DNA from: a virus
IMG/VR virus record: IMGVR_UViG_3300009506_000014
Coordinates: 1 to 64,000 of that record
DNA: 64,000 nucleotides
Reading direction: 5' to 3' (one strand)
Shown here: positions 12,652 to 60,258 of the stretch, piece after piece
Numbering within the stretch: position 1 is the first letter of the stretch
Layout: each line of letters opens with the position of its first letter
Made by a program: the position numbers and the translations under genes
Notes under the pieces: generated by a model
The model's input: only the letters and a program-made list of their open reading frames with translations
What the model was told of the DNA's origin: nothing
Database searches by the model: none

Positions 12652-13309
12652 GAGCAGCATATTTATAGTTGGGGGTGGGACAAGTCTAAAAGGATTTGAC
12701 TTTCAACGATTGAAAGACGTTAATACCATAGTGACAAATTGTGCTATCTTTGATGTTCCTGAAGCAAACTATTTCATTACTGTCGATTATACTTTTATTA
12801 GTAAGGTGAGGTCACGCTTAGTTGATTTTCACAGATTGAATGTGTCCAAAATATTTGTTGCAAACTTGGGACATCCTGATTTAGCAGAAGCAAAAGGAGC
12901 GGTGCATGATATTCGTTGTGGTTTGGTATATGACCTTTGTGACTATGATATAATAATCAAGTCACGTTATCAGGAAGGTATTGGGACAACATTTAGGGAA
13001 TTCAAGACTGGTGACAATTCAGGATTTTGTGCCCTGCAACTGGCTGTCCTTTTGGGATATACGAATATATATCTGCTTGGTATTGATTTAGTAGTGACCA
13101 GAAATACCCATTATCACAATGAATATATCAGAATGCCCACAGGCCAAAAACAATTTGTTGAAAAGCTTTGTCACTATGATAAACTTTTCAGAATAGGTAT
13201 AGAGCAGCTTAAAAAGAAAAGACCGGAATGCAATGTTGTCTCTTGTTCAGATATAAGCAGTCTCAATGACATCATCGCATATATACCATTGGAGAAAGTA
13301 TTATGTTGA
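12644..13309 (+). CDS. DUF115/GT42-like Rossmann protein
   Basis: 221 aa, GTG start overlapping the hub gene's stop. The N-terminus (IFIVGGGTSLKGFDF) and the later SGFCALQLAVLLGY with IYLLGIDL match the fold of DUF115/MptE-like proteins and GT42 sialyltransferases: a nucleotide-binding glycine loop, then a conserved S-G and G-I-D. These families move sugars or pterin phosphates. First gene of a nine-gene cassette; I infer a glycosyl- or sugar-nucleotide-linked activity, substrate unknown. Confidence 0.55.
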   Translation: MLKSSIFIVGGGTSLKGFDFQRLKDVNTIVTNCAIFDVPEANYFITVDYTFISKVRSRLVDFHRLNVSKIFVANLGHPDLAEAKGAVHDIRCGLVYDLCDYDIIIKSRYQEGIGTTFREFKTGDNSGFCALQLAVLLGYTNIYLLGIDLVVTRNTHYHNEYIRMPTGQKQFVEKLCHYDKLFRIGIEQLKKKRPECNVVSCSDISSLNDIIAYIPLEKVLC

Positions 13310-14223
13310 TTGGTCACTACAGAAAAGGAATGGGAAAGGCTTCCAAGTGTTGTGCTGTCCATAGTCAAGTATTTAATACTAAGATGTATGGGACATTTAA
13401 TATTGAAATTCCCGGATTCAAAATAATGAATCATGCAGCATCATTATTCTATCCGAATGGAGACAATTGGCAGAAGCGGTATTGGTTTGTTAAAATGTCA
13501 CATAAACAGGTCGGTACTTGTTTTGGTTGGGCTATCAGAGACAAGACAAGTAAACAAAGAATTAATACGCTTGAAGTATTGACAAAGAGAATGCTTCCTG
13601 ATTCTATGAAGGAAGGAGAAATAATCGTAGAGCTTCCAAGAAAATGGAGTCACTATGATATTGAGGATTGGGTGAGGGACAAATACTGGTTTCAGGGATT
13701 TGATTTTGCCCCGGTAAAAAGAGCAGATAGTAAAAGTTTATGGTGTACGATTGACGCGATTGATTGGGCGGGACTTGATGTTCTTGATTATGGGTGTCAT
13801 TATGGTTACATGTCTTTTGAAGCAAGTAAAAAAGGAGCTTGTGTTTTGGGGATTGACAACAATAAGGATTCTCTTTCTATGGCAGAAACTATCCGTGACC
13901 ATATAGTACATCAGGATGTCACTTTTATGAATAGGAAATTACTTGGCAAAAAGTCTTTTGATGTTGTTTTATATCTGAGTGTTCACCATCAGATTGACCC
14001 CAACTATAAAAGATTGTCACAAGCTATAAAAGAGTTTAAGGATGTAGCTCGGAAATATATCTTTCTTGAATTGATTGTCCCACCAATGTTTCCAAAGGAT
14101 AGAGGGATGACAGAGCAGGACATTGATTTTATGATTGCATCGCTTGGTGGATTTGCATTGCGAAAATACAAGCACAATGTTCGGGGACAACGGAAAGTGT
14201 ATATGATTGAGGTTGAGCAATGA
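13303..14223 (+). CDS. SAM-dependent methyltransferase
   Basis: 306 aa. A class I methyltransferase domain begins near residue 160: motif I VLDYGCHYGYMSFEA, acidic strand-2 end GIDNN, then FDVVLYLSVHH. The N-terminal 150 residues (SLFYPNGDNW, VGTCFGWAIRD) are unfamiliar and could hold the substrate. It overlaps genes on both sides by a few bases, so it is co-translated with glycosyltransferases, suggesting methylation of a sugar or lipid-like acceptor rather than DNA. Substrate unknown. Confidence 0.7.
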   Translation: MLIGHYRKGMGKASKCCAVHSQVFNTKMYGTFNIEIPGFKIMNHAASLFYPNGDNWQKRYWFVKMSHKQVGTCFGWAIRDKTSKQRINTLEVLTKRMLPDSMKEGEIIVELPRKWSHYDIEDWVRDKYWFQGFDFAPVKRADSKSLWCTIDAIDWAGLDVLDYGCHYGYMSFEASKKGACVLGIDNNKDSLSMAETIRDHIVHQDVTFMNRKLLGKKSFDVVLYLSVHHQIDPNYKRLSQAIKEFKDVARKYIFLELIVPPMFPKDRGMTEQDIDFMIASLGGFALRKYKHNVRGQRKVYMIEVEQ

Positions 14224-14921
14224 AAAGTCCAAAAGTTAGTATATTGATACCTGTGTTTAATAGAGTGACTCTACTCCCGGATTGTATTGAGAGCATAAGG
14301 AGACAGACTTTCTCTGCTATTGAGATTGTCATTTATGATGATGGCTCTACTGATGGGACAGGTGATTTAATACACAAGCTGGCATTGGAAGATGACAGGA
14401 TTCGATACACTATCAACAGTGCCAATATGGGTGTGTCAAACGCTCGTAATTTTCTTCTTGATTTAGCAGTTTGTGACATTGCTTGTTGGCAGGATTCTGA
14501 TGACATGAGCAATATATACAGGATAGAAAAACAATTTTCTGTAATGGAAAAGACGGATAAGATATGTGTCTCTACATGTCACACTAAACTTTTCTCACAT
14601 AATAAAAACGAATGCTTCAGGTATCCGGGTGTATTTGATGGTGATAGAGGGAATTCTCTTGGCTCGATAATGTTCAGAACCAAGGAAGCAGTTAGGTTTA
14701 TAGAGGATGTCAATATGGGTGGAGAGGATGTTGATTGGAAGAGGGACATGAAGAAATCAGGGATTGAATTTTTTAACCTGCCTGAAAGACTGTATTATGT
14801 GCGATTGACAAATAGGGACAGAATAGGATGTTTGAAATTGAAACATAAGAAAGAGAGGATGAAGTCAAATGAGCGGCGAAGAAAGAGACAAGCCCGTAAT
14901 CTCAATATGTATGACATTTAA
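14220..14921 (+). CDS. GT2 family glycosyltransferase
   Basis: 233 aa with a GT-A fold: VSILIPVFNRVTLLPDCIES, acidic IVIYDDGSTDGTGDLI near 36-52, NMGVSNARN and the metal-binding DSDD near residue 93. It uses a nucleotide sugar to glycosylate an unknown acceptor. ATG overlaps the previous stop (ATGA). Length is slightly short for GT2, but the catalytic part is complete. Confidence 0.88.
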   Translation: MKSPKVSILIPVFNRVTLLPDCIESIRRQTFSAIEIVIYDDGSTDGTGDLIHKLALEDDRIRYTINSANMGVSNARNFLLDLAVCDIACWQDSDDMSNIYRIEKQFSVMEKTDKICVSTCHTKLFSHNKNECFRYPGVFDGDRGNSLGSIMFRTKEAVRFIEDVNMGGEDVDWKRDMKKSGIEFFNLPERLYYVRLTNRDRIGCLKLKHKKERMKSNERRRKRQARNLNMYDI

Positions 14922-15675
14922 GAATAGGGCTGACTATCTTGACAAATATTTTACTTGGCTTATTCGGCAGGGCTTTGATTTGAAAGTAGTTCAAATATGT
15001 ATCGCCGATGGTGGTTCAAGTGACCATTGGAAAGCTGTGGTTCACAAGTGGTATAAATTTTTTCATTCCATAAAAACAGCATTCTGTGACAGGGATGCTC
15101 TGCCATTCAAGGTGGCAAGCAATTGTCCTGCTACCGATAGGAATGCTATGATTGTGAATATGGCTGATGCCGAGAAGATTATTGTCACTGACCCGGAAGT
15201 ATTATTTACAAGCAGTCGCCAACTGGATTGGATTTATAGTAATCTCATTGATAGGGACTTGATGATATACCATCCCTGTCATCGTGTTCAGACAGATGCA
15301 ACACCATTGAATTATCTTAGCAAGAAAGAAAAAGGAAAGACCATAAGTTATGGCGGCTTTTGTCTCTGCTTCTTTAGAAAAGCATTCATTGACAATGGGG
15401 GCTTTGACGAGAGATACGCTTTAGGCTTTGCAGGTGAGGACTCATATTTTATTTGGTGGTGGTCGAAGAACCGAAGAGCGAAGTCATCGAAGTATCCTGT
15501 CATTCATCTGTGGCATCCGTCACCATCTGCTCGTGCTTCTTATAAGAAGCTCAGGAGAGAATACACATTGCCACTACATGAGAGATTGAAAAAGGAAAAT
15601 GCTTTTCCTAATAAGGGGACTGATAAATGGTTTAGGCCGGAGACAATTAAAGAGGTAGAAATATGGCAACTTTGA
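14869..15675 (+). CDS. GT-A glycosyltransferase (GT2/GT27-like)
   Basis: 268 aa, starting 53 bp inside the preceding gene in another frame. It opens with ISICMTFKNRADYLDKY, has IADGGSSD near 45, and a C-terminal GGFDERYALGFAGEDSYF block typical of the galactosyltransferase C-terminal domain (Glyco_transf_7C) that binds the donor sugar. The long overlap indicates translational coupling. Donor and acceptor unknown. Confidence 0.8.
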   Translation: MSGEERDKPVISICMTFKNRADYLDKYFTWLIRQGFDLKVVQICIADGGSSDHWKAVVHKWYKFFHSIKTAFCDRDALPFKVASNCPATDRNAMIVNMADAEKIIVTDPEVLFTSSRQLDWIYSNLIDRDLMIYHPCHRVQTDATPLNYLSKKEKGKTISYGGFCLCFFRKAFIDNGGFDERYALGFAGEDSYFIWWWSKNRRAKSSKYPVIHLWHPSPSARASYKKLRREYTLPLHERLKKENAFPNKGTDKWFRPETIKEVEIWQL

Positions 15676-16427
15676 CAGCACATTGTATGATAAGAAATGA
15701 GCCGTTTGTATATTATGCAGTAAAGTCAATATATAAATACGTTGACATCATTCTTTTATACGATACTGGCTCTGATGATGAGCATACTATTGAGGATATA
15801 TACAAGCTTCTTGATGAAGATGACCAAAAGAAAATAAGATTCAAAGTCCATGAGATAGAGACAGATGAAACTAAATGGAAAGTGGGACAAGCAAGAGCAA
15901 CAGCAAAAAATAATGAGGGTAAAAAGGGCAAGTGGTGGGTACGTAGGAAAATGATTGAAGATACGAAGACAGAGTATTTTATGATACTTGATGGTGACGA
16001 AGTTTATTATGAAGATACTATAAAGGAAATTGTCAACGTTGTTATTCCCCATTGGAGTAAAAATAAACTTTGTGGCTTTGTGACTCTTAATTGGTTCATG
16101 GATTTGGAGCATGTTTTCAAACAATCAAAGAGTGGTCGTTTCTTTGTCACTGATAAAATTGGAATGACAGAGAGTTCGCCTAATGAATGTCACACAGTAA
16201 AGGCCACAGGAAGTAGGATAATTCTGAGTTCGGATTGTTCGTTTTTAATAAACAAAGGGACTCCTTATGCTCATTTTGAAAAAATGTTAAAACCTTGGAG
16301 AAGGATTGTAAGTCACAATGATATAAAATTGTTTAACGGGCAGTTGCCAAAAGTTATGCAGAAAAATCCATTTTACTTTGTGAGGTACTTAAATGAATGT
16401 CTCCACAAACAGCTTATTAGTAAATAG
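15663..16427 (+). CDS. GT-A family glycosyltransferase
   Basis: 254 aa. Features are an N-terminal LTAHCMIRNEPFVYYAVKSI, the acidic LLYDTGSDDEHT and a clear DXD in YFMILDGDEVYYED near 104-117. This is the third consecutive predicted glycosyltransferase. The start overlaps the upstream stop by 13 bp. It could build a short glycan together with its neighbours. Confidence 0.8.
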   Translation: MATLTAHCMIRNEPFVYYAVKSIYKYVDIILLYDTGSDDEHTIEDIYKLLDEDDQKKIRFKVHEIETDETKWKVGQARATAKNNEGKKGKWWVRRKMIEDTKTEYFMILDGDEVYYEDTIKEIVNVVIPHWSKNKLCGFVTLNWFMDLEHVFKQSKSGRFFVTDKIGMTESSPNECHTVKATGSRIILSSDCSFLINKGTPYAHFEKMLKPWRRIVSHNDIKLFNGQLPKVMQKNPFYFVRYLNECLHKQLISK

Positions 16428-17394
16428 GTCACCACTAACATGTAAGTTTCTGATGGCTGGATGTCCCATATCTCAGATGCCTACACATGTCCCTATATTT
16501 AATAATCCCTGTGCAGATTTTGATAAGTCAGCCTATAATCTGATAAGGGCATCTTCAGTGTCAAAGGGCGGTAATACTCAGAAAGAATTGGCTGAGCTAT
16601 ATAATGCAATAAAGACAAGTGGAAGGATTGACGCTTTGAAGGGATGGGACTTAGGTAGCAATACCTATGAAGTATGGGGAGGTCACCATCGGGCTGTGAT
16701 TGCTTATGTGCTTGGTATAAAGGAAGTGCCGTTTGTGAGAATACCTTTTGATGTCACAGTTTCGATGTCAGTTGATAAGATAAAAGAAATCCGAAAGATA
16801 TATGATGTTGTGAAGACCAAAGAAAGAATCAAGCCCGGTGTCTCTTACAATCCGTTCCCCGGAATGAAAGCCATAAGGAATTCAAAGGGCAGACTTCAGA
16901 TGATATACCGAGACATAATAAATTGTCGTGGTGATAGACTTCTTGACTTAGGTTGTAATGACGGGTATTTTGGTGTGGGATTATCCAAACATAATTTTGA
17001 TGTGACTTTTGTTGATAGAAGCAAAGTGTTTTTGGATGTTGCTCGTGCAAAGATGAAGGCTCTTAATAAGGATGCTGGATTCTTTCATGCCCGTATCGAA
17101 GATATAATAGAAAATATTAGTGACTTTGATGTTGTCATTTATATGGATGTATTTTATCATACTGTCATTGAGAAGGGTATTAGTATAGCTTTAGGACATT
17201 TAACACACTTGATGAACACAACGAAAGAAAGATTGATTTTTTCTCCGGGGCGATGGGATAAACTTGAAAAGGCTGGAGTGACACAGAAGGATTTATTCAA
17301 TGCAATAAGAGGTTCAAAGGCAAAACAAATACTTTATTTGGGAAAGGATAGTGACGATGGGTACGGAAGAGAAATCTACAGCATCCACTATTGA
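16393..17394 (+). CDS. ParB-like domain fused to methyltransferase
   Basis: 333 aa. Residues about 45-125 look like a ParB/Srx-type domain, with the signature EVWGGHHRAVIAYVLGIKEVPF resembling the G-G-H-R-R-A and E-V-P pattern of ParB N-terminal domains. From about 180 a class I methyltransferase follows (LLDLGCNDGYFGVGL, VTFVDRS, FDVVIYMDVFYHT). ParB-type domains bind or hydrolyse nucleotides, so the fusion may act on a nucleotide-sugar or nucleic acid. The start has GAGG upstream and overlaps the previous gene by 35 bp. Confidence 0.65.
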   Translation: MNVSTNSLLVNRSPLTCKFLMAGCPISQMPTHVPIFNNPCADFDKSAYNLIRASSVSKGGNTQKELAELYNAIKTSGRIDALKGWDLGSNTYEVWGGHHRAVIAYVLGIKEVPFVRIPFDVTVSMSVDKIKEIRKIYDVVKTKERIKPGVSYNPFPGMKAIRNSKGRLQMIYRDIINCRGDRLLDLGCNDGYFGVGLSKHNFDVTFVDRSKVFLDVARAKMKALNKDAGFFHARIEDIIENISDFDVVIYMDVFYHTVIEKGISIALGHLTHLMNTTKERLIFSPGRWDKLEKAGVTQKDLFNAIRGSKAKQILYLGKDSDDGYGREIYSIHY

Positions 17395-17929
17395 TTGGTC
17401 GATTGCAAAATTAATAGAGCTTGCGTCGCAATATGATTCGGTAATGGACATTGGTTGTGGGACAGGAAATACTCTGAAGAAAATCAAGGCAAGGCATCGT
17501 TTTGGTATTGATGCCTGTCAAGCTGCCATTACAAAAGCAAGGGAAGGTACATTTATCCATCTTGATGACTTGACATTTTATTGTTTTGATTTGAAGGGAC
17601 TTAGAAAAGTCTGGAAAAGAAAAGTTGATTGTATTATAGGTATTGACATTATAGAACACTTTGAACCGGAGGATGCTTTATGTCTTCTTAAAGACTGTGA
17701 ACAGATAGCAACAAAGTGCTTGATGTTCTTTGTCCCGGTAGGCAATCACCCACAAACAAAAGATGACAGAGGATTTAATAACCATTTTTATCAAACGCAT
17801 CGTAGCACTTGGTATCCGCAGGATATGGTGGGACTCGGTTATGAAGTGAGACATTATCCTAATTGGCATAAGAATGTCAAACCACCAAAAGAGAAAGGAG
17901 CAATGTGGTGTCGGAAAATATTGGAATAG
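17357..17929 (+). CDS. SAM-dependent methyltransferase
   Basis: 190 aa from ATG 17357; a GTG at 17351 is an alternative start. It is compact class I: motif I VMDIGCGTGNTLKKI near 30-44, GIDACQAAI, and CIIGIDIIEHFEPEDAL, with NNHFYQTHRSTWYP near the C-terminus as in methyltransferases that act on glycans or small molecules. Overlaps genes on both sides. Substrate unknown. Confidence 0.8.
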   Translation: MGTEEKSTASTIDWSIAKLIELASQYDSVMDIGCGTGNTLKKIKARHRFGIDACQAAITKAREGTFIHLDDLTFYCFDLKGLRKVWKRKVDCIIGIDIIEHFEPEDALCLLKDCEQIATKCLMFFVPVGNHPQTKDDRGFNNHFYQTHRSTWYPQDMVGLGYEVRHYPNWHKNVKPPKEKGAMWCRKILE

Positions 17930-19041
17930 ATATACAGAGCAGTGACTTCCATCCGTTCAACAGTCAAAAGATATTGACACACGGTTATCGTATGGAAGCG
18001 ATAGTTAATGAGCAGTATTTACCCCCGGTCGTACTGAATCTTGATGTTAGCGGTAGATGTCAGTATCGGTGTGACCATTGTCACCATAGGAGAAAACAAA
18101 TACACGATAAACAATTGCCTGATTTGCCTGAGCGTTTAGCAAAGACACTTCCTTATTTTTTACGAAATTGGAATGTTAATGGTCACCGGGTTCTTGGTTG
18201 TTGTATTGTAGGTAGTCAAGGTGATGCTCTTTTATATCCGGGCCTGCCTGATTTGTTGAGGGAGCTTCATTTTTCAGGGACAGAGATAGGGCTTGTCACC
18301 AACGGCTTTGGTTTCAATGGAGAGCTTTTGCATCATGCTGCTTTCTATACTAAATTTATTGGCTTTAGTATGGACGCTGCATCAACAAATACATACAAAG
18401 AAATAAAACATTCGTCACTATCTGCTTATCCGATTGTTTGTGGTAATATACAAAAGCTTGTGGGTATTATCCGAAGTCATCATTTAAGAAATGATGTTTG
18501 TTGGAAAATGCTTGTATTGCCTAAGTCACACAAAGAGATTTATCAAGGATGTGAAAAAGCCAAGGAGCTTGGATGTCGTTATGTTCAAATACGCCCGGCT
18601 GAGTTGGAAGATAAGGAGCGTGACTTGATAGATATTGAATGTGTAGAGAAGCAAATAAAAAATGCTATCCGTGACTTTGAAGAGCCGGGCAAGTTTGAGA
18701 TAGTAGGAGTACGTCACAAGTTTGACAAGGATTACAAGAAGCTCCTGCCAAAGTATTGCCATCTTACACCATTAACTGTGACAGTGACAAGTGATGGCAA
18801 GGCTTACGCTTGTGTTGATAGAAGGTGTGACAGTTCTACTCTACTTGCTGATTGTGGTTTGTATGGATGGGCAAGTCTGAGGGACGTTTGGGGTTCGGCA
18901 AAACATGTCAATATAGTCCACCGATTTATAAACCAGTGTGGTGCTGGCCCTAATTGTGACATCCGTTGTTCAAACTACGGATATGATAAATATTTCAGAA
19001 ACTATTTTGTTAATGACAATGTTGATAGGAATATGATATGA
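17905..19041 (+). CDS. Radical SAM enzyme
   Basis: 378 aa; GAAAGGAG lies 4 nt before this GTG and 7 nt before a second in-frame GTG at 17908. The radical SAM cluster motif CxxxCxxC is at C52, C56 and C59 (RCQYRCDHC). GSQGDALLYPG and GLVTNGFG follow, as in the barrel. The C-terminal part has extra cysteines (YACVDRRC, QCGAGPNCDIRC), suggesting a SPASM/Twitch-type auxiliary cluster, common in enzymes that modify peptides or sugars. In this cassette it could perform C-C or C-S chemistry on a sugar or virion peptide. Confidence 0.85.
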   Translation: MVSENIGIDIQSSDFHPFNSQKILTHGYRMEAIVNEQYLPPVVLNLDVSGRCQYRCDHCHHRRKQIHDKQLPDLPERLAKTLPYFLRNWNVNGHRVLGCCIVGSQGDALLYPGLPDLLRELHFSGTEIGLVTNGFGFNGELLHHAAFYTKFIGFSMDAASTNTYKEIKHSSLSAYPIVCGNIQKLVGIIRSHHLRNDVCWKMLVLPKSHKEIYQGCEKAKELGCRYVQIRPAELEDKERDLIDIECVEKQIKNAIRDFEEPGKFEIVGVRHKFDKDYKKLLPKYCHLTPLTVTVTSDGKAYACVDRRCDSSTLLADCGLYGWASLRDVWGSAKHVNIVHRFINQCGAGPNCDIRCSNYGYDKYFRNYFVNDNVDRNMI

Positions 19042-19631
19042 GTTCGTTTATAGTAGTAGCTTATTTTACCGTAGGGACTTTGTATGAAGCAAGAGCGAAG
19101 ATACTGGAAAGGTCACTTGAAAGAAACAGAGTCCCTTATCATATTGAGGGTGTCCCAAACTTAGGCTCGTGGTTGAAGAACACAAACTTCAAACCAACTT
19201 TCATCAAGTCAATGCTTCAGAAGTTTGATGAAAATATTGTATATGTTGACGTTGATGCTGAATTCCTTCAGCATCCAATTCTGTTTGAAGAGCTTGGCAA
19301 TGACTCAGATTGTAATATTGCTGTCCATCTTTTCGATAGAAGCTGTTATGTCAATTCGGTCGGAGGCTTTGAAGTATTGAGTGGGACAATATTCCTGCGT
19401 AATTGTGATTGGGTAAAAGGTATTGTGAATGAATGGGAAGCAAGATGTCAAAAACATCTACATGGTGAGGTTGACCAAAAGTCACTTGAGCATGTTCTCC
19501 GGGGACGCTTTACTGAATTACCGGGGGAATACTGCAAGATATTTGACAGAGAACCGGAAGTCACTGAGCCTGTGATTGTTCATTATCAGGCATCAAGAGA
19601 AGTAAGGAGAAAAAGAGGTAGGTTAATATAG
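19038..19631 (+). CDS. GT-A type nucleotide-sugar transferase
   Basis: 197 aa. YEARAKILERSLERN at the start, then FKPTFIKSMLQKF, the DXD-type IVYVDVDAEFLQHP near 66-79 and VLSGTIFLRN resemble short GT-A transferases of the GT77/GT8-like type. Last gene of the cassette and of the rightward block; a strong terminator follows within 15 bp. Confidence 0.65.
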   Translation: MSSFIVVAYFTVGTLYEARAKILERSLERNRVPYHIEGVPNLGSWLKNTNFKPTFIKSMLQKFDENIVYVDVDAEFLQHPILFEELGNDSDCNIAVHLFDRSCYVNSVGGFEVLSGTIFLRNCDWVKGIVNEWEARCQKHLHGEVDQKSLEHVLRGRFTELPGEYCKIFDREPEVTEPVIVHYQASREVRRKRGRLI

Positions 19632-22086: not shown

Positions 22087-22365
22087 TTACTGCTCCTTAC
22101 TTTCTTCCCATTTTTCCCATTCATCTTCAAAGTCACTTTTTCTTTTTTCATACTTCTTTTTTTGTTGTCTTTCTTTTTTGAGAATGACTTCATATTTCTT
22201 TTGTGCCTCTTCAATAGAGTCACAACCAAATTTCTCCTTCAAGGTAGTTTCAACTTGTGACATAGCTGCTTCGGCTTTGTCGGCAATGCGTGTCATCTTC
22301 TGAGCTTTCTTTTTTAGCTCTGCAAACTCTTCTATGTCTCTATTTCTCTTCTTTGTTTTTGTCAT
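22087..22365 (-). CDS. Coiled-coil protein in the Rad50 operon
   Basis: 92 aa, almost entirely charged heptads (ELKKKAQKMTRIADKAEAA and a Lys/Glu-rich second half), a long coiled coil. It lies between the TatA-like gene and the Rad50 C-half and could supply part of the coiled-coil arm missing from the short split ATPase halves. That is inference from composition and place. Overlaps the TatA-like gene by 26 bp. Confidence 0.65.
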   Translation of the reverse strand: MTKTKKRNRDIEEFAELKKKAQKMTRIADKAEAAMSQVETTLKEKFGCDSIEEAQKKYEVILKKERQQKKKYEKRKSDFEDEWEKWEESKEQ

Positions 22366-22507
22366 TGTCTATGCTCTCTTTGAATCCTTTTCTGAATTCC
22401 TTTATCGTTTTGGTTGTCCCACTTATTACTTTCGGAAGCTGTCTCCCAAAGACCAAAATACCGATTAAGCAAATCACTGCTATTTCAGCAAAACCAAAAT
22501 TAAACAT
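22340..22507 (-). CDS. tatA: TatA/TatE-like twin-arginine translocase component
   Basis: 55 aa, missing from simple long-ORF lists because of its length. It starts MFNFGFAEIAVICLIGILVF: a short N-out transmembrane helix with an early Glu. The family hallmarks follow: F-G at the hinge (VFGRQLP), L-P, and an amphipathic helix ending IKEFRKGFKES, then a charged tail. This matches TatA_B_E end to end. AAGGA is 7 nt before the ATG; it overlaps the SbcD stop by 8 bp and the coiled-coil gene by 26 bp, so it is embedded in the operon. In bacteria TatA oligomers form the export path for folded RR-signal proteins. Four such signals occur at 54630-57794. A holin-like role is an alternative. Confidence 0.85.
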   Translation of the reverse strand: MFNFGFAEIAVICLIGILVFGRQLPKVISGTTKTIKEFRKGFKESIDNDKNKEEK

Positions 22508-23474
22508 TGTCACGTTCCTTTTCTGCTGCTTTGAATAAAAGCTCTCTTGTCCTTTTGTTTACTTTTACGTTTTTCTTTCTCAGATAATTTTTAAGAATCA
22601 ATTCAAAGTCAATGTCCTGACCTTCCATACTTTTTAATTCTTTGCTTAGCTCTGAAATGTCAATCTCAGGATTCTCTTCAAGTGCCTTTGCTGTTTTCGT
22701 TTCAAGATAGACATCGTTCTTTATGGGTATCCTGATAACTGTCACTTCTCCGTCCGGGTGAAGTAATCCCACTTGTGGTCTGTAGTCTAAATCGGTTGTT
22801 CTTCTTCTCATCAATGTCCCACAATTGAACACAGTCGTGTCTCCAATCTTGGTAAGAAAGCCCTTGTGATTGTCTCCAAACACCATGACATCATAACCAA
22901 AGAGCTTATTGTCAATCATATTCTTTTTTGCTATGTAGTTTATGTTTGTTTTCCTTGCTGCTGTTTTGTATCTGTGTTTACCATGCCAGATGAATTGGTG
23001 ACATAAAGCAATATTTGCTGGCCCAACCGTTGTCTCTTTTTTTGGTGGTTTTATTTTTTCACCATAAGCAAAGGAGTATAAATTAAAATGTTTAAGCAGT
23101 TGTGTATCTACTACACATTCCAAATCTTTGATAGTGTCACTCAAGACAAGTGAATAGTATGCACTCTTTTCCATTTCATCAGGGTTATGATTTGGTGTAT
23201 CATGCTGTCCCGGTATGCAATACATATCAACTGGCAGATATGTCATTGCAAAGTTTATTAGCTCCGGGCAGCAATTCCAGTAGTTAAGTATGTCACCAGC
23301 AGCCAGTATAGGGCATTTGAAAAATCTTCTTGTCTCTTGCAGCCAGTAAAGAACCTGTCTCATTGCATTATACCAATCTGGCTCTTTACTTCTCAATACA
23401 GGTGGATTATGTGACAGGTGTATATCGGCACACAGTATTGCATCTACTTTTTTATTGACATGTGTTCTTTTCAT
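22500..23474 (-). CDS. sbcD: SbcD/Mre11-like nuclease (gp47-type)
   Basis: 324 aa calcineurin-type phosphoesterase. Motifs in order: CADIHLSHN (D-x-H), AAGDILNYWN (G-D), PGQHDTPNHN (G-N-H-D variant with Gln), ALCHQFIWHG, and VFGDNHKG followed by FNCGTLMRR. These give the two-metal site of Mre11/SbcD/T4 gp47. It overlaps the Rad50 N-half by 23 bp and the TatA-like gene by 8 bp. Together with the split ATPase it should trim DNA ends during recombination-dependent replication. Confidence 0.9.
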   Translation of the reverse strand: MKRTHVNKKVDAILCADIHLSHNPPVLRSKEPDWYNAMRQVLYWLQETRRFFKCPILAAGDILNYWNCCPELINFAMTYLPVDMYCIPGQHDTPNHNPDEMEKSAYYSLVLSDTIKDLECVVDTQLLKHFNLYSFAYGEKIKPPKKETTVGPANIALCHQFIWHGKHRYKTAARKTNINYIAKKNMIDNKLFGYDVMVFGDNHKGFLTKIGDTTVFNCGTLMRRRTTDLDYRPQVGLLHPDGEVTVIRIPIKNDVYLETKTAKALEENPEIDISELSKELKSMEGQDIDFELILKNYLRKKNVKVNKRTRELLFKAAEKERDNV

Positions 23475-48549: not shown

Positions 48550-49908
48550 TTATGCTGCTAATATGCTTGTGTTGTTTGCATCAAACATTACTGTTTTACC
48601 AAACGGTAATTTTCTATCTTTCGTTTTGGTCACCCAAAGAACCGGATAGCTCGGTTCGCGTTCCGGGAATGTTCCGTATGTATCGGTGAAGTATATTAGA
48701 CAGGCCGGGGTGAGTCCCCTCTTCTGTACTCTTTCAAATACAGGTCTGAAATCTGTCCCACCATATATTTGTTTTGGATTCGGTTTGATGGGAAGGTCTG
48801 AGGTTCTGTATGTCTCTTCGTTTGTTATTTGGTCGTCACAATATATCAGTTGTACCGTTGTATCGTAGGCTGATAATATCTGTGACACTTCCTTCAGGAA
48901 TATGGCAAGTTGAATCTCATCAATACTTCCCGAAGTATCTACTGCAATGACTATCTCAGGTAACTCATCCGAACAAATACCGGGGACATATAAACCCCTT
49001 TGTAAATAGTTTCGGTCAGGGACTTCCCACATATAGTCATTACGTGCATTCGTTTCTACGAAGTCCCTCAGTATCACATACCAAGGCAAAGGTGGATTTT
49101 GAATCTCTTCAACAGCCCGGTCTAAACTTGGGAATGCTTGACCTTTTTTCTGAGCAGCTTTATAAGCCATCGTGACAGCTTGCTGCCATTGAGCAAGCTG
49201 CTCTTTTAGGTCACTCTCATCAAGGATGTCAGCATCTTCAACACCACCACAACCACCGGGGTCGGGACAGGTATTGGTATCATCATCACACATGCCGGAA
49301 TCGGAGTCACCATCTTGCTCGTCTTGGTCTTCATCTTCATCTTCAGGTTCTCCGTCACCTTCTTCTTGTTCTTCTTCGTCTTCTTGTTCTTCAGGTTCTC
49401 CGTTATCCTGACCGCTGCCGGACTGTGACTCGTCTGAGCTTTCCTGCTCTTCTTGTTCTTGTTCTTTTTGCTCTTGCTCTTCCTGTTGTTTGCGTTCCAA
49501 GTCACTGTATATCTCTTCTGCTGTCATTCCTCGGTACATTGAATCATACAAACAACCTTCAATGAGCTTGAAGCCAGCGTCACTGAGTATCGGATTAATG
49601 GCATAATCGGTAGCCATATTCCAGAGATATGTATCCCGGCCATTCCTTCTCAGGTGAGTCCCCATAGCACAGTGCATTACTTCATGGGCAAGAACAAACT
49701 GCACCCTATCATCATCAAGTGACTCAATGAATCTCGGATTGTATTTAATACGCTTGCCATTAACGCAAGCTGTTTCGATTGAGACATCTTCGAGAAGTTC
49801 TAATCTCATGGCAAGATGTCCCCAAAAGCAATGGTCGAGAACAAGTCCCAACCTTTGCTGAATAATTCTCAACATCTGTTTGGTTTGTTTTTGTGTTGTA
49901 GGTGACAT
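48550..49908 (-). CDS. VWA protein with metallopeptidase-like domain (DUF2201-type)
   Basis: 452 aa from ATG 49908 (MSPTTQKQTKQML), preceded by AGGAGAAATAAAATG. The N-terminal domain has VLAHEVMHCAMGTHLRR (H-E-x-x-H). An acidic Glu/Gln/Asp-rich linker covers about 145-225, and the C-terminal VWA-like domain has VIAVDTSGSIDEIQ (MIDAS D-x-S-x-S) and GGTDFRPVF. This is the DUF2201 arrangement that accompanies MoxR ATPases. It likely acts with the next two upstream genes as a chaperone or metal-insertion machine. Confidence 0.85.
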   Translation of the reverse strand: MSPTTQKQTKQMLRIIQQRLGLVLDHCFWGHLAMRLELLEDVSIETACVNGKRIKYNPRFIESLDDDRVQFVLAHEVMHCAMGTHLRRNGRDTYLWNMATDYAINPILSDAGFKLIEGCLYDSMYRGMTAEEIYSDLERKQQEEQEQKEQEQEEQESSDESQSGSGQDNGEPEEQEDEEEQEEGDGEPEDEDEDQDEQDGDSDSGMCDDDTNTCPDPGGCGGVEDADILDESDLKEQLAQWQQAVTMAYKAAQKKGQAFPSLDRAVEEIQNPPLPWYVILRDFVETNARNDYMWEVPDRNYLQRGLYVPGICSDELPEIVIAVDTSGSIDEIQLAIFLKEVSQILSAYDTTVQLIYCDDQITNEETYRTSDLPIKPNPKQIYGGTDFRPVFERVQKRGLTPACLIYFTDTYGTFPEREPSYPVLWVTKTKDRKLPFGKTVMFDANNTSILAA

Positions 49909-49922
49909 TTTATTTCTCCTTT

Positions 49923-50969
49923 TTATGCAGCACCCTTGAAGAGCATTTTCGGGTGGTCGGTGACCCACTTGATGTAGGCTTTGGTTTCTCTTACTTTGGG
50001 ACAGGCAGTGTCAATACCTGCAACGAAAACTGCTGCGAAGTCAATCTCCATACGCTCAAGGTACTTGAAGATATTCTCGGCGTTTGCTTTGGTTGCTTTG
50101 CTGAGCAGAGTTGTGACTATTGCCCACTTTGCATCGGGGCTGCTTGGGACAGGTTCTTTAGTCGGGTTCTTCAGGATGTTTTCAAGATTTGGCAGTGACC
50201 TGTAAACTTTAAGGAAGCCACAGAATGCTACGGCTGCTGCGTGACCTACTGCACCTTCTATCACTGAGAATTTATCAACGCCAAGTTTCAACCAGTCACT
50301 TACTGCTTCCCATTGCCTTGGTGACGGATGGTTTACAATATCCATTGTCCCTTCCTCAGTGGCAAGTAGTTCAGGCATCCAGTTTATGAAGCTGATAACT
50401 TCCATTGCAATGTCATGCTCATAAGCCCATACTACCCAATCCTCTTTTTTAACGGCAAGCTCAATAATCGTTTTGAACCGTGACTTCACTGGCTCAATCA
50501 TCCCGGAGACATGAGCAAAGTCTTGTTTGCGATTCGTACAAGCAATGAACACTACATGGGGACTGATGTTTTTGCCGTTGCTTCTTATCAACTGCATAAG
50601 TGACGCTTGGGTTGCTGGCGGAGCTTGGCCCATGTCATCAATAAAGTATATGGTAAGCTTCTTTGCATCCTGAGCAGCTTCGAGATTTCCGAAGGGGACA
50701 AATCTGGCTTTGACTTTGCCCTTTTCATTTATGATAGCCCCAAGTCCCTTGTAATCAATTGGGCTATCGTGGACGGGTGTGGATATGATAATGTCACATT
50801 TCAGGGCTTTGCGTACAGCTAAAACGACATCTGTTTTACCAATGCCGGGCATCCCGGTAATCAGTACAGACATCTTGTTGGGGACAGCAATCATTAAAAG
50901 ATTGAAAAGCTCTTGTGGGGACATTGTTGATGTTGTATCGGTACTTGAATTTGAATAGTTAGGTGACAT
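49923..50969 (-). CDS. MoxR-type AAA+ ATPase
   Basis: 348 aa. Walker A LITGMPGIGKTDVVLAV, Walker B IYFIDDMGQAPPATQASLM, sensor 1 VVFIACTNRKQD and arginine-finger region EPVKSRFKTIIEL. MoxR ATPases pair with VWA proteins to remodel or activate targets; the VWA gene is immediately downstream. Starts at AGGAGAAACAAAATGTCACC. Confidence 0.88.
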   Translation of the reverse strand: MSPNYSNSSTDTTSTMSPQELFNLLMIAVPNKMSVLITGMPGIGKTDVVLAVRKALKCDIIISTPVHDSPIDYKGLGAIINEKGKVKARFVPFGNLEAAQDAKKLTIYFIDDMGQAPPATQASLMQLIRSNGKNISPHVVFIACTNRKQDFAHVSGMIEPVKSRFKTIIELAVKKEDWVVWAYEHDIAMEVISFINWMPELLATEEGTMDIVNHPSPRQWEAVSDWLKLGVDKFSVIEGAVGHAAAVAFCGFLKVYRSLPNLENILKNPTKEPVPSSPDAKWAIVTTLLSKATKANAENIFKYLERMEIDFAAVFVAGIDTACPKVRETKAYIKWVTDHPKMLFKGAA

Positions 50970-53566: not shown

Positions 53567-54343
53567 ATGGCAAAAAAGAAATGGAGTGACAAGTTAGTAA
53601 TCAAGGCGTATGAGTACGCATACGCGGGACTTCGCAACGGTCAAATCGCAAGGACATTTGGCATCAGTAAAAACCGTTTTGCCGATTGGAAAAAGCTTCA
53701 TCCTCTTTTTGCTTATGCTCTGAAACGGGCAAGAAAAAAACGTGACAAGGAGAACGGCGAGTCAATGAGTTTTCGTGACTATGTATATCAGCAACTTCCT
53801 GACAATATACAGAAAGTATGGGATGAAGTCACGGAGCTTGATGAAGCGGAATCCGGTCAAGCTGCCATTGAAGCTCTTTTGTCACAACACGGAAAACGAG
53901 TCAGACAAAATATATTTGTTCATGCTATGGTGTCATCAAATTTCTCGCTGAGCCAGTCACTTAAAAGGGCCAATATAAGTAAAGCAACTTTGGACTATTG
54001 GAAAAAGAATGAGCCTGAGTTTGCTGTCCTCATCGAAGAGCTAAACTGGCATAAAAAGAATTTCTTTGAAGACCACTTGGCGACATTGGTTGCTGGTGGT
54101 GATTCTGCCGCTACGATATTCGCTAACCGTTCTTTCAATGCAGACCGGGGCTATGGAGATAAGCAAAGAGTTGATGTCAATGTGAATGCACAGATTGAAA
54201 CGTCAACACCATTATCGCTTGAAGAGCTTGACTTGCCCCCGGAGCTATTGAAACAGATTTTAGACCATATACGTCATAAAAAGATTATCGAATCCAAGGT
54301 AGTCACGGAAAAGAAAAAACTATTGGAAGCAGGAGCGGCATAA
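53567..54343 (+). CDS. terS: Small terminase subunit
   Basis: 258 aa. Two helix-turn-helix-like segments: the N-terminal YAGLRNGQIARTFGISKNRF and a related one near 130-145 (SQSLKRANISKATLDYWKK). Then a helical oligomerisation part and SADRGYGDKQ-like FNADRGYGDKQRVDVNV, common in phage small terminases. It should recognise the packaging site and activate the large subunit encoded two genes later. Confidence 0.8.
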   Translation: MAKKKWSDKLVIKAYEYAYAGLRNGQIARTFGISKNRFADWKKLHPLFAYALKRARKKRDKENGESMSFRDYVYQQLPDNIQKVWDEVTELDEAESGQAAIEALLSQHGKRVRQNIFVHAMVSSNFSLSQSLKRANISKATLDYWKKNEPEFAVLIEELNWHKKNFFEDHLATLVAGGDSAATIFANRSFNADRGYGDKQRVDVNVNAQIETSTPLSLEELDLPPELLKQILDHIRHKKIIESKVVTEKKKLLEAGAA

Positions 54344-54360: not shown

Positions 54361-54633
54361 ATGTTCAGGACAATTAAAAGATGGCTCGGCATAAAACGGC
54401 CTGAGTATTATATCAGGATTGTAACTGCTATGGTCACGATTGAAGTCAAAGCAGAAAGTAAAAACGACTTGGATTATTTGGTCACGGAGCATCTGGACAA
54501 GCTGGTTCTAAAAGCAAAGGAAGTTGCTCAGGATGTCATTGCCGAACAAAAAAGCGTATGTGCAAAAGAAGTTAATAAAAGTATGATGTTGTCAACACCA
54601 ATAAGAAGTGGAATTACTACGGGCAGAGCATGA
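54361..54633 (+). CDS. Hypothetical protein between terminase genes
   Basis: 90 aa. N-terminus MFRTIKRWLGIKRPEYYIRI, then a short beta/alpha segment. Overlaps the large terminase ATG by 4 bp, so translation is coupled. No family recognised. Confidence 0.6.
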   Translation: MFRTIKRWLGIKRPEYYIRIVTAMVTIEVKAESKNDLDYLVTEHLDKLVLKAKEVAQDVIAEQKSVCAKEVNKSMMLSTPIRSGITTGRA

Positions 54634-56186
54634 AAGATAAAATGACACGTAGGGATTTACTTAAAGCCGGGGCTATGGCTGCCATTGGAGTGGGTGTCTC
54701 GTCACTTTCAGAGGAAGATAAGGCTTTAAGCAGTAGTCTTTCCGTCACGGAGATAGATGCAATCCGAGCCTATACGAGACAGTCCTTTTACGGCTTCGTC
54801 CAAGAATTTTGGGATACTGTCATTCCTGAAAGTCCCGTATGGAATTGGCATATTGAATACTTGTGTAATGAATTGCAGTTTATTGCCGAACGTGTGTTTG
54901 AGGGACTTCCAAAGCTTTACGACCTTGTTATTAATATAAGTCCCGGTAGTACCAAGTCAACGATATGCAGCATCATGTTTCCTGCATGGGTGTGGACAAG
55001 AATGGCGTCAGCCCGAATTATTTGTGCATCGTATGCTTACAACCTTGCAATGGATTTGTCTCGTAAGAATCGTGACGTTGTATTATCTGAAAGGTATCAA
55101 GCGTGTTTTCCTGAATTACAACTACGTGACGACCAATCGGCAAAGAGCTATTTCATTAATCGGCTTGGCGGTTCAAGATATTCGGTTGGTGTTGGTGGCT
55201 CTGTGACAGGTCTGCACGCTCATTTTCTTTTTGTTGATGACCCATTAGACCCAAATGAAGCTGTCTCTGAAGCGGATTTGAAAACAGCAAACCGATGGAT
55301 GAAAGAGACACTACCCACGAGAAAAGTCAACAAGCTGATTACGCCTACAATTTTAATCATGCAGAGACTCCATCAGGATGACCCTGCACAGAATATGATT
55401 GACAGGGCTGAAGAGGGTGGAGCTAAAGTAAGGCATATATGTCTCCCCGGCGAATTGACAGAGGATGTCAAGCCAAAAGAGTTAAGAGCCAAATATGTTG
55501 ACGGCTTGATGGATGTAAACAGGTTAGACCGACAAGTGCTGAAAGAAATGTATGTCGCCTTGGGTGAGTATGGATATGCAGGGCAGATATTACAACGTCC
55601 TGTCCCGTTAGGCGGTGGTATGTTCAAGACCGACAAAATCAGAATAGTCGATGCTCCCCCTTGTAAAGTCATAAGATGTATTCGATATTGGGACAAAGCA
55701 GCGTCACACAACAAAGGGGCTTTTACAGTTGGGGCTTTATTATGTGAAGATGAAAAGGGATGCACAGGGATACTTGACATACAAAGGGGACAATGGGGTT
55801 CATACGAAAGAGAGTCACATATCTTGTCTACTGCACAGTTGGACGGGAAAAAAATTAGGATATGGATAGAGCAGGAGCCGGGCAGTGGTGGCAAGGACTC
55901 GGCAGAATATACAATAGGAAGTCTCCGGGGCTTCAGGGTGTTTGCTGAGAAAGTAGGGGCTTCAGAGGGCAGTAAGCAATTAAGAGCAGAACCGCTTGCG
56001 TCACAGGTCAATGCAGGAAATGTTTGGATGATACGAAGTGACTGGAATAAGGAATATATCAGTGAGTTGTCATTCTTTCCATTCTCAAAATACAAAGACC
56101 AAGTTGATGCGTCATCGGGTGCTTTTAACAAGTTGACAAAGAAACGAACAAGAATTGGTGGATATGGTAGAAGAAAAGGAACATGA
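54630..56186 (+). CDS. terL: Large terminase subunit with twin-arginine N-terminus
   Basis: 518 aa. ATPase: Walker A-like NISPGSTKSTICSIMF, Walker B HFLFVDDPLDPNEA, coupling MQRLHQDDPA. Nuclease: IRYWDKAASHNKGAF, IWIEQEPGSGGKDSA, KYKDQVDASSGAF. Unusually, the N-terminus reads MTRRDLLKAGAMAAIGVGVS, an R-R-x-L-L-K motif plus hydrophobic stretch as in Tat signal peptides; terminases are cytoplasmic. The 4-bp overlap supports this start. An internal ATG at 54675 (residue 16) would remove the motif. Confidence 0.93.
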   Translation: MKDKMTRRDLLKAGAMAAIGVGVSSLSEEDKALSSSLSVTEIDAIRAYTRQSFYGFVQEFWDTVIPESPVWNWHIEYLCNELQFIAERVFEGLPKLYDLVINISPGSTKSTICSIMFPAWVWTRMASARIICASYAYNLAMDLSRKNRDVVLSERYQACFPELQLRDDQSAKSYFINRLGGSRYSVGVGGSVTGLHAHFLFVDDPLDPNEAVSEADLKTANRWMKETLPTRKVNKLITPTILIMQRLHQDDPAQNMIDRAEEGGAKVRHICLPGELTEDVKPKELRAKYVDGLMDVNRLDRQVLKEMYVALGEYGYAGQILQRPVPLGGGMFKTDKIRIVDAPPCKVIRCIRYWDKAASHNKGAFTVGALLCEDEKGCTGILDIQRGQWGSYERESHILSTAQLDGKKIRIWIEQEPGSGGKDSAEYTIGSLRGFRVFAEKVGASEGSKQLRAEPLASQVNAGNVWMIRSDWNKEYISELSFFPFSKYKDQVDASSGAFNKLTKKRTRIGGYGRRKGT

Positions 56187-56187
56187 C

Positions 56188-56388
56188 ATGGCAAAAACAA
56201 TGGAGCAGAAAAATAATGTCCCGGACATTGGGGAAGTGCTTTACACCATTTTGGCAAATCAAGTGACAATTTTGGATTTATTAAAATGCTTCCATCGTCA
56301 CGATATAAATGGTATGAGTGAAATAAGTCAGCAGTTAATAAAGATGGACAGAACATCAAGAGACTTATTGAAAAGAATGCAATTATGA
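56188..56388 (+). CDS. Small helical protein
   Basis: 66 aa from ATG 56188, just after the terminase stop, with AAAAGGA upstream; the frame opens earlier at 56155 inside terL. Sequence DIGEVLYTILANQVTILDLL is a helix of mixed hydrophobicity, followed by a basic tail. Overlaps the next ATG by 4 bp. Function unknown. Confidence 0.6.
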   Translation: MAKTMEQKNNVPDIGEVLYTILANQVTILDLLKCFHRHDINGMSEISQQLIKMDRTSRDLLKRMQL

Positions 56389-56942
56389 AAAATGACAAGA
56401 TAAAACGAAGAAGTTTTTTGCAAGGTCTTGCAGCCATTGTGACAACTGGGACTTTGGTAAAAAAGACCGAAGGCAAAGTGACAGAGCAGACGAAGACGAA
56501 AGAAATATTGCCGCCACCTTCATTTGCCCCAACTTACAGAGAAAATAAACCAGCGGAACACACAGAGCTTATGCCACCTATATGTATAAGTAGATGTGAG
56601 TTAAATGAGGGAGAGACGAGGTTGACATTCCGGGCTGGGGGACAGGAGTATTATATCTATCCTGATAAGATAGAAATGACATATCATTCATATTCAAGAC
56701 AAGTGACTCCAGATTATTGTGTTGTCAATTCTCCGGGATATATGGGGACAATGATAGTAAAAGGTTGGTTTGGTGGTGGTAGTCCCGGTGTGTGTATTGA
56801 AGATATGATAGGGAGAAGTGGTGACCTTGTTATTCGCAAGCTGGAAGAAGGTCACGAGTTTATTTGTAAAGCTTCGTTGGTTGAAGTTAGGATAGAAATT
56901 AGTCGATTAGTCACGGAGTTAATATTTTATATATATCAATAG
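56385..56942 (+). CDS. Tat-signal-bearing protein of unknown function (1)
   Basis: 185 aa. The N-terminus MKNDKIKRRSFLQGLAAIV has the twin-arginine consensus R-R-S-F-L followed by a moderately hydrophobic h-region and Lys after it (avoiding Sec). After a Pro-rich linker (PPPSFAP) lies a beta-rich domain with several Cys. I infer export or membrane attachment in the host. ATGA overlap with the preceding gene. Confidence 0.7.
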   Translation: MKNDKIKRRSFLQGLAAIVTTGTLVKKTEGKVTEQTKTKEILPPPSFAPTYRENKPAEHTELMPPICISRCELNEGETRLTFRAGGQEYYIYPDKIEMTYHSYSRQVTPDYCVVNSPGYMGTMIVKGWFGGGSPGVCIEDMIGRSGDLVIRKLEEGHEFICKASLVEVRIEISRLVTELIFYIYQ

Positions 56943-56956
56943 GAAAGGACATTAGT

Positions 56957-57256
56957 ATGGAAAAGAAAATTGAACGGCGTGGATTTCTAAAGGGACTTAC
57001 CGGGGTGATAGCTGGAATTACAGTCGGTGCAAAAGCCGCATCTGTCACACCAACAAAAGAGCCTACAATTAGAAGTCCCGAACCAGCAGAAGAGTTTGAT
57101 GATGACATTTGGAATAAACTTGCAGAAGAGTTTGATGATGACAGTTGGATTAAACTTGATGAAGCAATTATTAAACATGGACGTGAACTGCTACAAAGAG
57201 TGATGGCCGGAAAGAGTCACAGTCGTTTCAAATCAAGAATACCAAAAAGGAGATAA
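56957..57256 (+). CDS. Tat-signal-bearing protein of unknown function (2)
   Basis: 99 aa. MEKKIERRGFLKGLTGVI is followed by AGITVGAKAAS: R-R-x-F-L-K, h-region and an A-x-A signal-peptidase site. The remainder is short, with a duplicated EEFDDD(I/S)W(N/I)KL segment and a basic C-terminus. GAAAGGACATT lies before the ATG. Function unknown. Confidence 0.7.
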   Translation: MEKKIERRGFLKGLTGVIAGITVGAKAASVTPTKEPTIRSPEPAEEFDDDIWNKLAEEFDDDSWIKLDEAIIKHGRELLQRVMAGKSHSRFKSRIPKRR

Positions 57257-57260
57257 ATAT

Positions 57261-57794
57261 ATGCTGACAAGAAGAAGTTTATTTAGAAGAGCCGGGGAAG
57301 CCATAGCCTATGTGACAGGCTGGTTATATATGACAAGCGGAGCAAAGCCGAAAAAGGAAAAAGCAGCAGAGCTTCCACAGTACAAAAGTTTTATCAGTAA
57401 CAAAATTTATGTCCCACCATTTGAAGTGACTGATAAAGATATTGTGGATTGTTTGGTCTATGCCAATTATCAGTTTAATCAATGGCTTAATTGTGGATTT
57501 GACAAACGTCATGAAATGCCTGTTCTTTATATGTCACAAAGATTCTATGACAATATGTGCCTATTGTACATTTCCAGATGGCCCAACCGGGCTATTTCAG
57601 ATAGTCACGTTATGGAATGCAGACATGAAGGTAATTTATGGGGACTTCAACAGGTTTTCAATTTGGATATAGAGATTGTCCCGGATGGTGTGATTGATTG
57701 GGGTGATGGCCCGGAATATAGTTGTTTCCTTACTTGTATTTCCTGTGAAGGGACAGCACAATCAAGAAATATGAAATATAAGAAAATAGATTAG
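57261..57794 (+). CDS. Tat-signal-bearing protein of unknown function (3)
   Basis: 177 aa. MLTRRSLFRRAGEAIAYVTG has R-R-S-L-F, then a hydrophobic stretch with Trp. The body is mixed, with a Cys-containing C-terminus (YSCFLTCISCEG). It is the third consecutive gene with such a signal and lies 10 nt before the portal gene. Alternative: a plain membrane anchor. Confidence 0.65.
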   Translation: MLTRRSLFRRAGEAIAYVTGWLYMTSGAKPKKEKAAELPQYKSFISNKIYVPPFEVTDKDIVDCLVYANYQFNQWLNCGFDKRHEMPVLYMSQRFYDNMCLLYISRWPNRAISDSHVMECRHEGNLWGLQQVFNLDIEIVPDGVIDWGDGPEYSCFLTCISCEGTAQSRNMKYKKID

Positions 57795-59412: not shown

Positions 59413-60258
59413 ATGGCAAATTATGACCCGTCACGAACAGCAGGACTTCGCCGCAGGTTTGTAGGCCAGATGAACAAACGCTTCCAGAAAGTCAATCGGG
59501 AAATCAGGGAATTTCTTGTCAAGGATGATGCGTTTGGATTGACAGCCCCGGATAGTCCCTTGATTATCCAACAACAAGTCCCCTATCGTCAATACCAGTT
59601 CTTGACAAATCCGCAGAAAACGGCAGCATTCCGAAAGTGGCTACAGGATAGAATCAATGCCGGGATTCTAAGTGTTGACGTGAAGGGTAAGCCTTGGACA
59701 GCCGAATATATTGACTCTGCATACAGGAAGGGAATGACACGAGCATTTATTGACACACTTCCCCCGGCTAAAGCTGGCTCTTATGATTTTTTCATGGGTA
59801 GTAAAAAAGAGTTTTTGCGTCAAGCATTTATGCAACCGGAAATGCTGAGTAAAATTGAATTATTGTCAACACGTGCTTTTGAGAATCTTAAGGACATCAC
59901 TACTTCTATGTCGGCACAATTAAACAGGATTCTTAGCGATGGATTGTCACATGGTCATTCCCCGGAGAAGATAAGCAGGGCAATGGCTAAACAGATAGGC
60001 AAGCTGTCACGGACAAGAGCAAGAGTATTGGCCCGTACTGAGATTATTAATGCTCATGCTGAGGGACAGCTTGATGGATTTGAGAAATTAGGAATAAAGA
60101 AAACACAATTAAGAGCAGAGTGGTCAACGGCAGGGGATGACATTGTATGTCCTCAGTGTGGGGCTATGGAAGGTGAGACTTTCTCCATTGATAAGGCAAG
60201 GGGACTTATTCCTTTACATCCGAATTGTCGTTGTGCATGGATACCATATACAAAATAA
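59413..60258 (+). CDS. Minor head/morphogenesis protein (SPP1 gp7/Mu F-like)
   Basis: 281 aa. The C-terminal RTRARVLARTEIINAHAEGQ, VCPQCGAMEGETFSI and LHPNCRCAWIP form the conserved head-morphogenesis domain. It starts 3 nt after the portal stop and ends before two tiny genes and a terminator. Probably attaches inside the portal vertex. Confidence 0.88.
   Translation: MANYDPSRTAGLRRRFVGQMNKRFQKVNREIREFLVKDDAFGLTAPDSPLIIQQQVPYRQYQFLTNPQKTAAFRKWLQDRINAGILSVDVKGKPWTAEYIDSAYRKGMTRAFIDTLPPAKAGSYDFFMGSKKEFLRQAFMQPEMLSKIELLSTRAFENLKDITTSMSAQLNRILSDGLSHGHSPEKISRAMAKQIGKLSRTRARVLARTEIINAHAEGQLDGFEKLGIKKTQLRAEWSTAGDDIVCPQCGAMEGETFSIDKARGLIPLHPNCRCAWIPYTK

Follow-up and report, generated by a model that had tools for sequence, protein, structure and literature searches.

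Links between phages and the twin-arginine translocation (Tat) system have been described in several forms. For the gp25 releasin of phage Mu, hijacking of a part of Tat for the release of endolysin has been proposed as a speculation (PMC9239132). Some Klebsiella phages depend on the host tatC gene; no Tat signal was found in their phage proteins, and an indirect role was inferred by the authors (PMC13412088). In marine circular viruses, TatC is annotated by DRAM-v in a figure (PMC10564846). Here we analyze an uncultivated bacterial virus in which the large terminase subunit TerL and three small genes next to it start with Tat-like leaders, and which also encodes a TatA-like protein. The window, 64,000 nucleotides long, is part of the IMG/VR record IMGVR_UViG_3300009506_000014, whose full length is 77,155 bp; profile searches covered the whole record.

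Compared with the described cases, this locus shares with Mu gp25 the proposed exploitation of Tat by a phage through a twin-arginine motif, but the Mu protein has the reverse topology and carries the motif within a membrane protein, whereas here the candidate signals are of the classic N-terminal type and are accompanied by TatA (PMC9239132). The Klebsiella phages are alike in that phage success is tied to the host Tat system, and differ in having no Tat signals (PMC13412088). The marine circular viruses also carry a Tat component, which is TatC there and TatA here, and the part of that article concerned with the annotation does not describe Tat substrates (PMC10564846). In an open library of 5.39 million papers, our searches uncovered neither a terminase described with a Tat signal nor a TatA encoded by a phage. 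If the reading developed below is true, a phage would both supply a Tat pore subunit and Tat-tag its own late proteins, terminase included, which would provide a concrete, testable case for why some phages need host tatC and would raise the possibility of membrane-tied packaging. Even with TerL set aside, the cluster of small genes with Tat tags beside the terminase would point to a class of exported phage proteins not studied so far.

Twin-arginine leaders at the terminase

N-termini of the form RRx[FL][LF] are present in four of five consecutive genes, namely TerL and the downstream genes g2, g3 and g4 (Table 1). All four lie within 54630-57794, with the coordinates and sequences listed in the sequence-only reading that preceded this work; its statement that the small genes are otherwise unrelated also stands, since the g2-g4 bodies are mutually dissimilar, with a marginal similarity of the g2 and g3 linkers (p ~0.02). 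The Pfam profile TAT_signal (PF10518) has three matches only in the record, all of them in this cluster: TerL (E-value 1.5e-5, 22.5 bits; 22.8 bits with neighbours included, at a cut-off of 22.7; 18.1 bits in hmmscan), g3 (6e-4) and g2 (7.9e-4). Scores with the NCBIfam profile TIGR01409 were 16.3 for TerL, 16.5 for g3 and 12.1 for g2, all under its cut-off of 16.7.

As had been proposed, a weakly hydrophobic stretch follows each motif. TerL, g2 and g3 pass a test for a 12-residue uncharged and moderately hydrophobic core, and g4 fails it because of a Glu in the stretch. In a scan for 19-residue stretches of transmembrane-grade hydrophobicity, which flagged the phage TatA and a Sec-type (general secretory) lipoprotein, all four proteins were negative. 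The core is followed by Lys in g2, g3 and g4. Such hydrophobicity below the transmembrane level and such a basic residue behind the core are characteristic of Tat signals as opposed to Sec signals. Inspection by eye suggested a candidate signal peptidase site in g3 (AKA-A) and a possible one in g4 (SGA). On paper, the leaders look like Tat signals and not like Sec signals or membrane anchors. They resemble the bacterial signals behind PF10518 and TIGR01409 in the RRx[FL]L motif, the weakly hydrophobic core, the basic residue after it (g2-g4) and the AxA sequence (g3), but differ in being located on phage late proteins including the packaging motor, in scoring at or under the curated cut-offs, and in that TerL and g2 show no clear site for cleavage.

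To estimate the background, 2,726 distinct open reading frames (ORFs) from related loci were examined, with the true cases counted in, and RRx[FL][LIMFV] was seen close to the N-terminus in 18 of them (0.66%). At this frequency the chance of four such starts in five neighbouring genes is ~1e-6 per genome. Together with three Pfam matches at E <= 8e-4, this speaks against the explanation that the leaders are RR-rich lookalikes arising by chance, with TerL actually starting at 54675 or later. Consistent with such an artefact are the marginal individual scores, the occurrence of control motifs, the lack of a strong Shine-Dalgarno sequence at 54630, and the TerLs of relatives, which begin nearer the conserved region; we nevertheless consider it very improbable. 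None of the start codons further downstream offers a better ribosome-binding site. The TerL start overlaps the stop codon of the preceding ORF as ATGA (54630-54633), and the g2 start at 56385 is arranged likewise, which favours the upstream starts of both genes. Many genes of this phage use a Shine-Dalgarno sequence (TerS, portal, the MuF-like gene, g3, and g4, where it is strong), and a good one is absent both at 54630 and at the in-frame alternatives 54642, 54675 and 54690. Translation of TerL is most simply explained by a coupled start at 54630, and a later start appears unlikely; the earlier proposal of a Tat-like leader at the beginning of TerL is supported.

The leaders are similar at the protein level (z 6.6 for TerL and g3, z 7.4 for g2 and g3), and only 0-2 identical codons occur among their 4-7 shared residues. 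The scarcity of shared codons argues for conservation or convergence at the protein level and against recent copying of one DNA module; an origin of the leaders as recent DNA duplicates was rejected on this ground.

The phage TatA and the host translocase

The TatA-like gene mentioned in the sequence-only reading proved to be real. Its product exceeds the cut-off of Pfam family PF02416 and retains the hallmark residues G5, E8, F20 and G21 (the FG hinge), P25 and F38 (alignment A2). With TIGR01411, the model of the tatAE subfamily, it scores 37.3 bits (E-value 1.5e-9), under the cut-off of 53.9. Judged by these models, the protein is a member of the TatA/B/E superfamily, which we name TatA from its best model and its size and not as a certified tatAE protein. 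It is similar to TatA/TatE in its length of 55 residues, Glu8, the FG hinge, the LP pair and an amphipathic helix with EFRKG, and has sequence matches to solved TatA chains; it differs in being encoded by a phage, in being one residue shorter after FG, in having GTTK instead of the usual glycine-rich GxGK, in its score under the tatAE cut-off, and in the absence of TatC. No TatC over the cut-off was detected in the 77-kb record (best score 13.5 bits versus 25.1).

The start of phage TatA overlaps the stop of an SbcD-like metallophosphoesterase gene and its end overlaps the start of the next ORF. The relative G022 is syntenic here and has SbcD and a homologue of this 92-aa (amino acid) ORF side by side with no TatA between them; the phage TatA is inserted between SbcD and its neighbour. 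It is located among recombination genes, 32 kb from the leaders and on the opposite strand. The scanned loci contain no TatA detectable with a local TatA profile, no relative was found in viral contigs, and three TatA queries had no match in 50,697 phage records at tblastn sensitivity. Comparison of the phage TatA with 18 genomes that carry TerL relatives gave similarities of at most 45% and no clear affinity; the contigs are spread over many phyla, and on these grounds no host is assigned.

Our favoured reading, held with about as much doubt as confidence, is that the leaders are real Tat-type signals to the host Tat translocase, which the phage TatA would supplement. We draw the connection of TatA with the leaders from their co-occurrence in one record only; that Tat recognises the leaders, that the proteins are exported, that TatA acts together with the leaders, and what becomes of TerL are likewise inferred, as follows. 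TerL, g2, g3 and probably also g4, whose leader is weaker, would be otherwise unrelated late proteins with twin-arginine signals kept at the protein level, and the host TatBC receptor would recognise these signals during infection. The g2-g4 proteins could then be exported to the outer face of the cytoplasmic membrane or retained at it. The phage TatA, produced from a replication/recombination operon, may join the host translocase, there being no TatC gene in the phage itself, and raise or alter the capacity of that translocase. Full export of TerL is unlikely because packaging needs the motor in the cytoplasm, and its leader would most likely provide membrane contact or be an inessential fusion.

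The earlier suggestion of a dedicated export or membrane-targeting system is not supported in that form, given the lack of TatC in the record, the distance and orientation of TatA, and the lack of a detectable TatA in leader-bearing relatives (several of which are fragments). A more elaborate possibility, which we regard as unlikely, is a phage-directed Tat branch, in which phage TatA and host TatBC would handle the tagged late proteins including the motor, with packaging or head assembly tied to the membrane, or with export of folded proteins.

Recurrence in related viruses and competing explanations

PF10518 was searched against 80 related virus records (2.48 Mb), and four of them had matches. 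The match in G070 was taken as chance (11.7 bits over 9 positions, on the strand opposite to TerL). The other four matches come from three records (L139 with two, L200 and L202 with one apiece), and all fall in the 3 kb preceding TerL; bases that near a terminase account for at most 23% of the total searched. In L139, whose TerL is 58% identical, three small genes with RR leaders (starts RRTFM, RRTFI and RRSFM) precede TerS and TerL, and the leader of the first has an AxA-like site. The Tat-tagged 83-aa protein at L139:1150-1401 has HPNCRC near its end, and the same motif is found near the end of the MuF-like protein of the window (59413-60258).

L200 encodes a near stand-alone Tat peptide of 35 aa, MKRRDFLKSIAGTLAAPLGLSLISPLSLLAASKNP, and L202 a counterpart of 49 aa, both upstream of TerL; each overlaps the end of a gene whose small product is very hydrophobic, the two genes being homologous. 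The ORF that follows the bare peptide of L200 (L200:3375-3584) starts with GTG and overlaps the TGA stop of the peptide, and in L202, too, the leader is out of frame with a body, one whose LRING end is similar. These arrangements possibly represent coupled genes, frameshifting or decay. L014 and L035 have a matrixin protease (Pfam E-value 2.4e-32) with the start MVTRRTFINLSAAALVGMGLVPASD and an AxA-like site upstream of TerS, plausibly an exported enzyme. Finally, the TerL of L015 starts with MKRKKQKITRRKFIKKAVITIPTTSALADM; its leader, RRKFIKKAVITIPTTSALA, has AxA right before the usual TerL start and is reported by no Tat profile. Such a leader is missing from the other TerL N-termini compared, and loci related by RecA or capsid (L229-L258) contain no further Tat leader or TatA. 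Terminase-linked Tat leaders thus recur in relatives, sporadically. A gene of ~82 codons at L191:4271 has a Tat-like start, MNRKGFIKRVLSAMAALLVPVGLVKSA, with RK in place of RR.

Several observations weigh against the favoured reading. The matches of g2 and g3 to PF10518 are under the cut-off, TerL passes it only marginally, g4 is matched by neither PF10518 nor TIGR01409, and TerL has no clear cleavage site. Zero matches to PF10518 at E <= 1 in the first 50 records make the trait rare. The second gene of L139 has the RR motif with the hydrophobic stretch nearly missing, which suggests decay or another role. No TatA was found in any of the 80 related records, including those with Tat leaders, several of the latter being short, and hence TatA and the leaders need not be linked. 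Control motifs with a hydrophobic stretch arise by chance too: a stricter scan of 197 loci for motif plus stretch gave 10 cases for RR (8 distinct), 3 for KK, 5 for RK and 1 for KR. Single weak cases therefore mean little, but the cluster still counts.

Part of these data would also agree with the absence of any connection among the elements. The small late proteins would then be ordinary, host-dependent Tat envelope proteins (for example accessories of exclusion or lysis), TatA an unrelated gene acquired from a host, and the TerL leader a functionless fused or read-in segment. The remote position of TatA on the other strand and its absence from relatives with leaders, the sporadic occurrence of leaders, which most related TerLs lack, and the resemblance of the Tat-tagged matrixin of L014 and L035 to a normal exported enzyme all fit this explanation. 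However, TatA overlaps the coding sequences of its neighbours and has its hallmark residues preserved, and it coincides in one record with three Tat matches, each of these being rare in the family. We consider a lack of connection a serious possibility, although not a probable one.

The recurrence of a TerL leader in two divergent phages, the one in the window and L015, raises the question of membrane docking, in which the leaders would hold TerL and its late partners on the inner side of the membrane by binding the Tat receptor or TatA, with head assembly or packaging occurring there. The neighbouring genes are head and packaging genes (TerS, portal, MuF), the leaders of TerL and g2 have no clear cleavage site, and in T4 prohead initiation is known to take place at the membrane. 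Docking is quite improbable, however, as nearly all related TerLs manage without a leader, AxA-like sites are present, as in cleaved export signals, in the leaders of g3, the first L139 gene, L014/L035 and L015, and the stand-alone L200 and L202 peptides carry nothing to dock.

The same nearly bare peptides would suit a decoy function, with leaders occupying the host Tat receptor as competitors and blocking host export, for instance to impede superinfection or the separation of cells. Several successive leaders would increase the dose, and tatC influences some Klebsiella phages (PMC13412088). Yet there is no obvious reason for a Tat-blocking phage to carry a TatA, and the leaders of the window are located on sizeable bodies, so that we think this very improbable.

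Gene coordinates and other features of the record

The plus-strand gene order is TerS (start at 53567), a 90-aa ORF (54361), TerL, a 66-aa ORF, g2, g3, g4, portal (57805) and the MuF-like gene (59413). Membership of TerL in its family is also indicated by TIGR01630 (46.1 bits, cut-off 41.65), and motifs conserved among relatives are intact in its body (alignment A1).

Table 1. Coordinates of the Tat-leader cluster and of the TatA locus in the window
Feature	Position	Strand	Evidence and remarks
TerL, terminase large subunit, 518 aa	54630-56186	+	MKDKMTRRDLLKAGAMAAIGVGVSSLSEED; PHROG 38, E-value 7.7e-76; conserved motifs (alignment A1)
TerL Tat-like leader	54630-54704	+	MKDKMTRRDLLKAGAMAAIGVGVSS; PF10518, near-cut-off TIGR01409, ATGA overlap with ORF 54361-54633
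66-aa ORF between TerL and g2	56188-56388	+	without Tat motif; ATGA overlap with g2
g2	56385-56942	+	MKNDKIKRRSFLQGLAAIVTTGTLVKKTEG; Tat-like leader KRRSFLQGLAAIVTTGTLVKK and orphan body of ~150 aa
g3	56957-57256	+	MEKKIERRGFLKGLTGVIAGITVGAKAAS; Tat-like leader ERRGFLKGLTGVIAGITVGAKAAS with AxA, and body of ~70 aa with acidic repeats and basic tail
g4	57261-57794	+	MLTRRSLFRRAGEAIAYVTGWLYMTSGAKP; weaker RRSLF leader TRRSLFRRAGEAIAYVTGWLYMTSGA and orphan body; motif only
92-aa ORF	22087-22365	-	downstream of TatA; homologue directly after SbcD in G022
Phage TatA, 55 aa	22343-22507	-	MFNFGFAEIAVICLIGILVFGRQLPKVISGTTKTIKEFRKGFKES...; PF02416, E-value 1e-7, 31.5 bits versus cut-off 21
SbcD-like metallophosphoesterase	22500-23474	-	PF12850, E-value 7.5e-5; upstream of TatA

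Relatives of the g2 and g4 bodies were not found in viral contigs or phages, and no PDB match was found by sequence for g4 or TerL. The structure predictions of the g2 and g4 bodies have a mean pLDDT (predicted local distance difference test) of 35 and are unusable for fold assignment. A lysis cassette at the Tat cluster was considered and rejected; membrane and lipoprotein genes of the phage are located at 65.8-67.6 kb, and Pfam gave no match for these genes or for those around the L200 cassette.

In the whole record (the window and L057), the words GTCAC/GTGAC occur 547 times versus 274 expected, and GTCCC and GTCTC are also enriched, whereas GTCAG is depleted (63 versus 206) and CCWGG is nearly missing (3 versus 54). 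A primase site or restriction avoidance is a possible cause of these skewed words. Both ends of the record (1-100 and 77,000-77,155) are located within 30-bp repeats coding for SPSASESPSVSPS, and hence the record may be circular or cut inside one repeat gene. At 12644-19631 of the window, the tail genes are followed by a series of genes for glycosyltransferases, methyltransferases and radical SAM proteins. At 48550-50969, a VWA/DUF2201 metallopeptidase-like gene adjoins an AAA ATPase gene, an arrangement conserved with L001 and L022.

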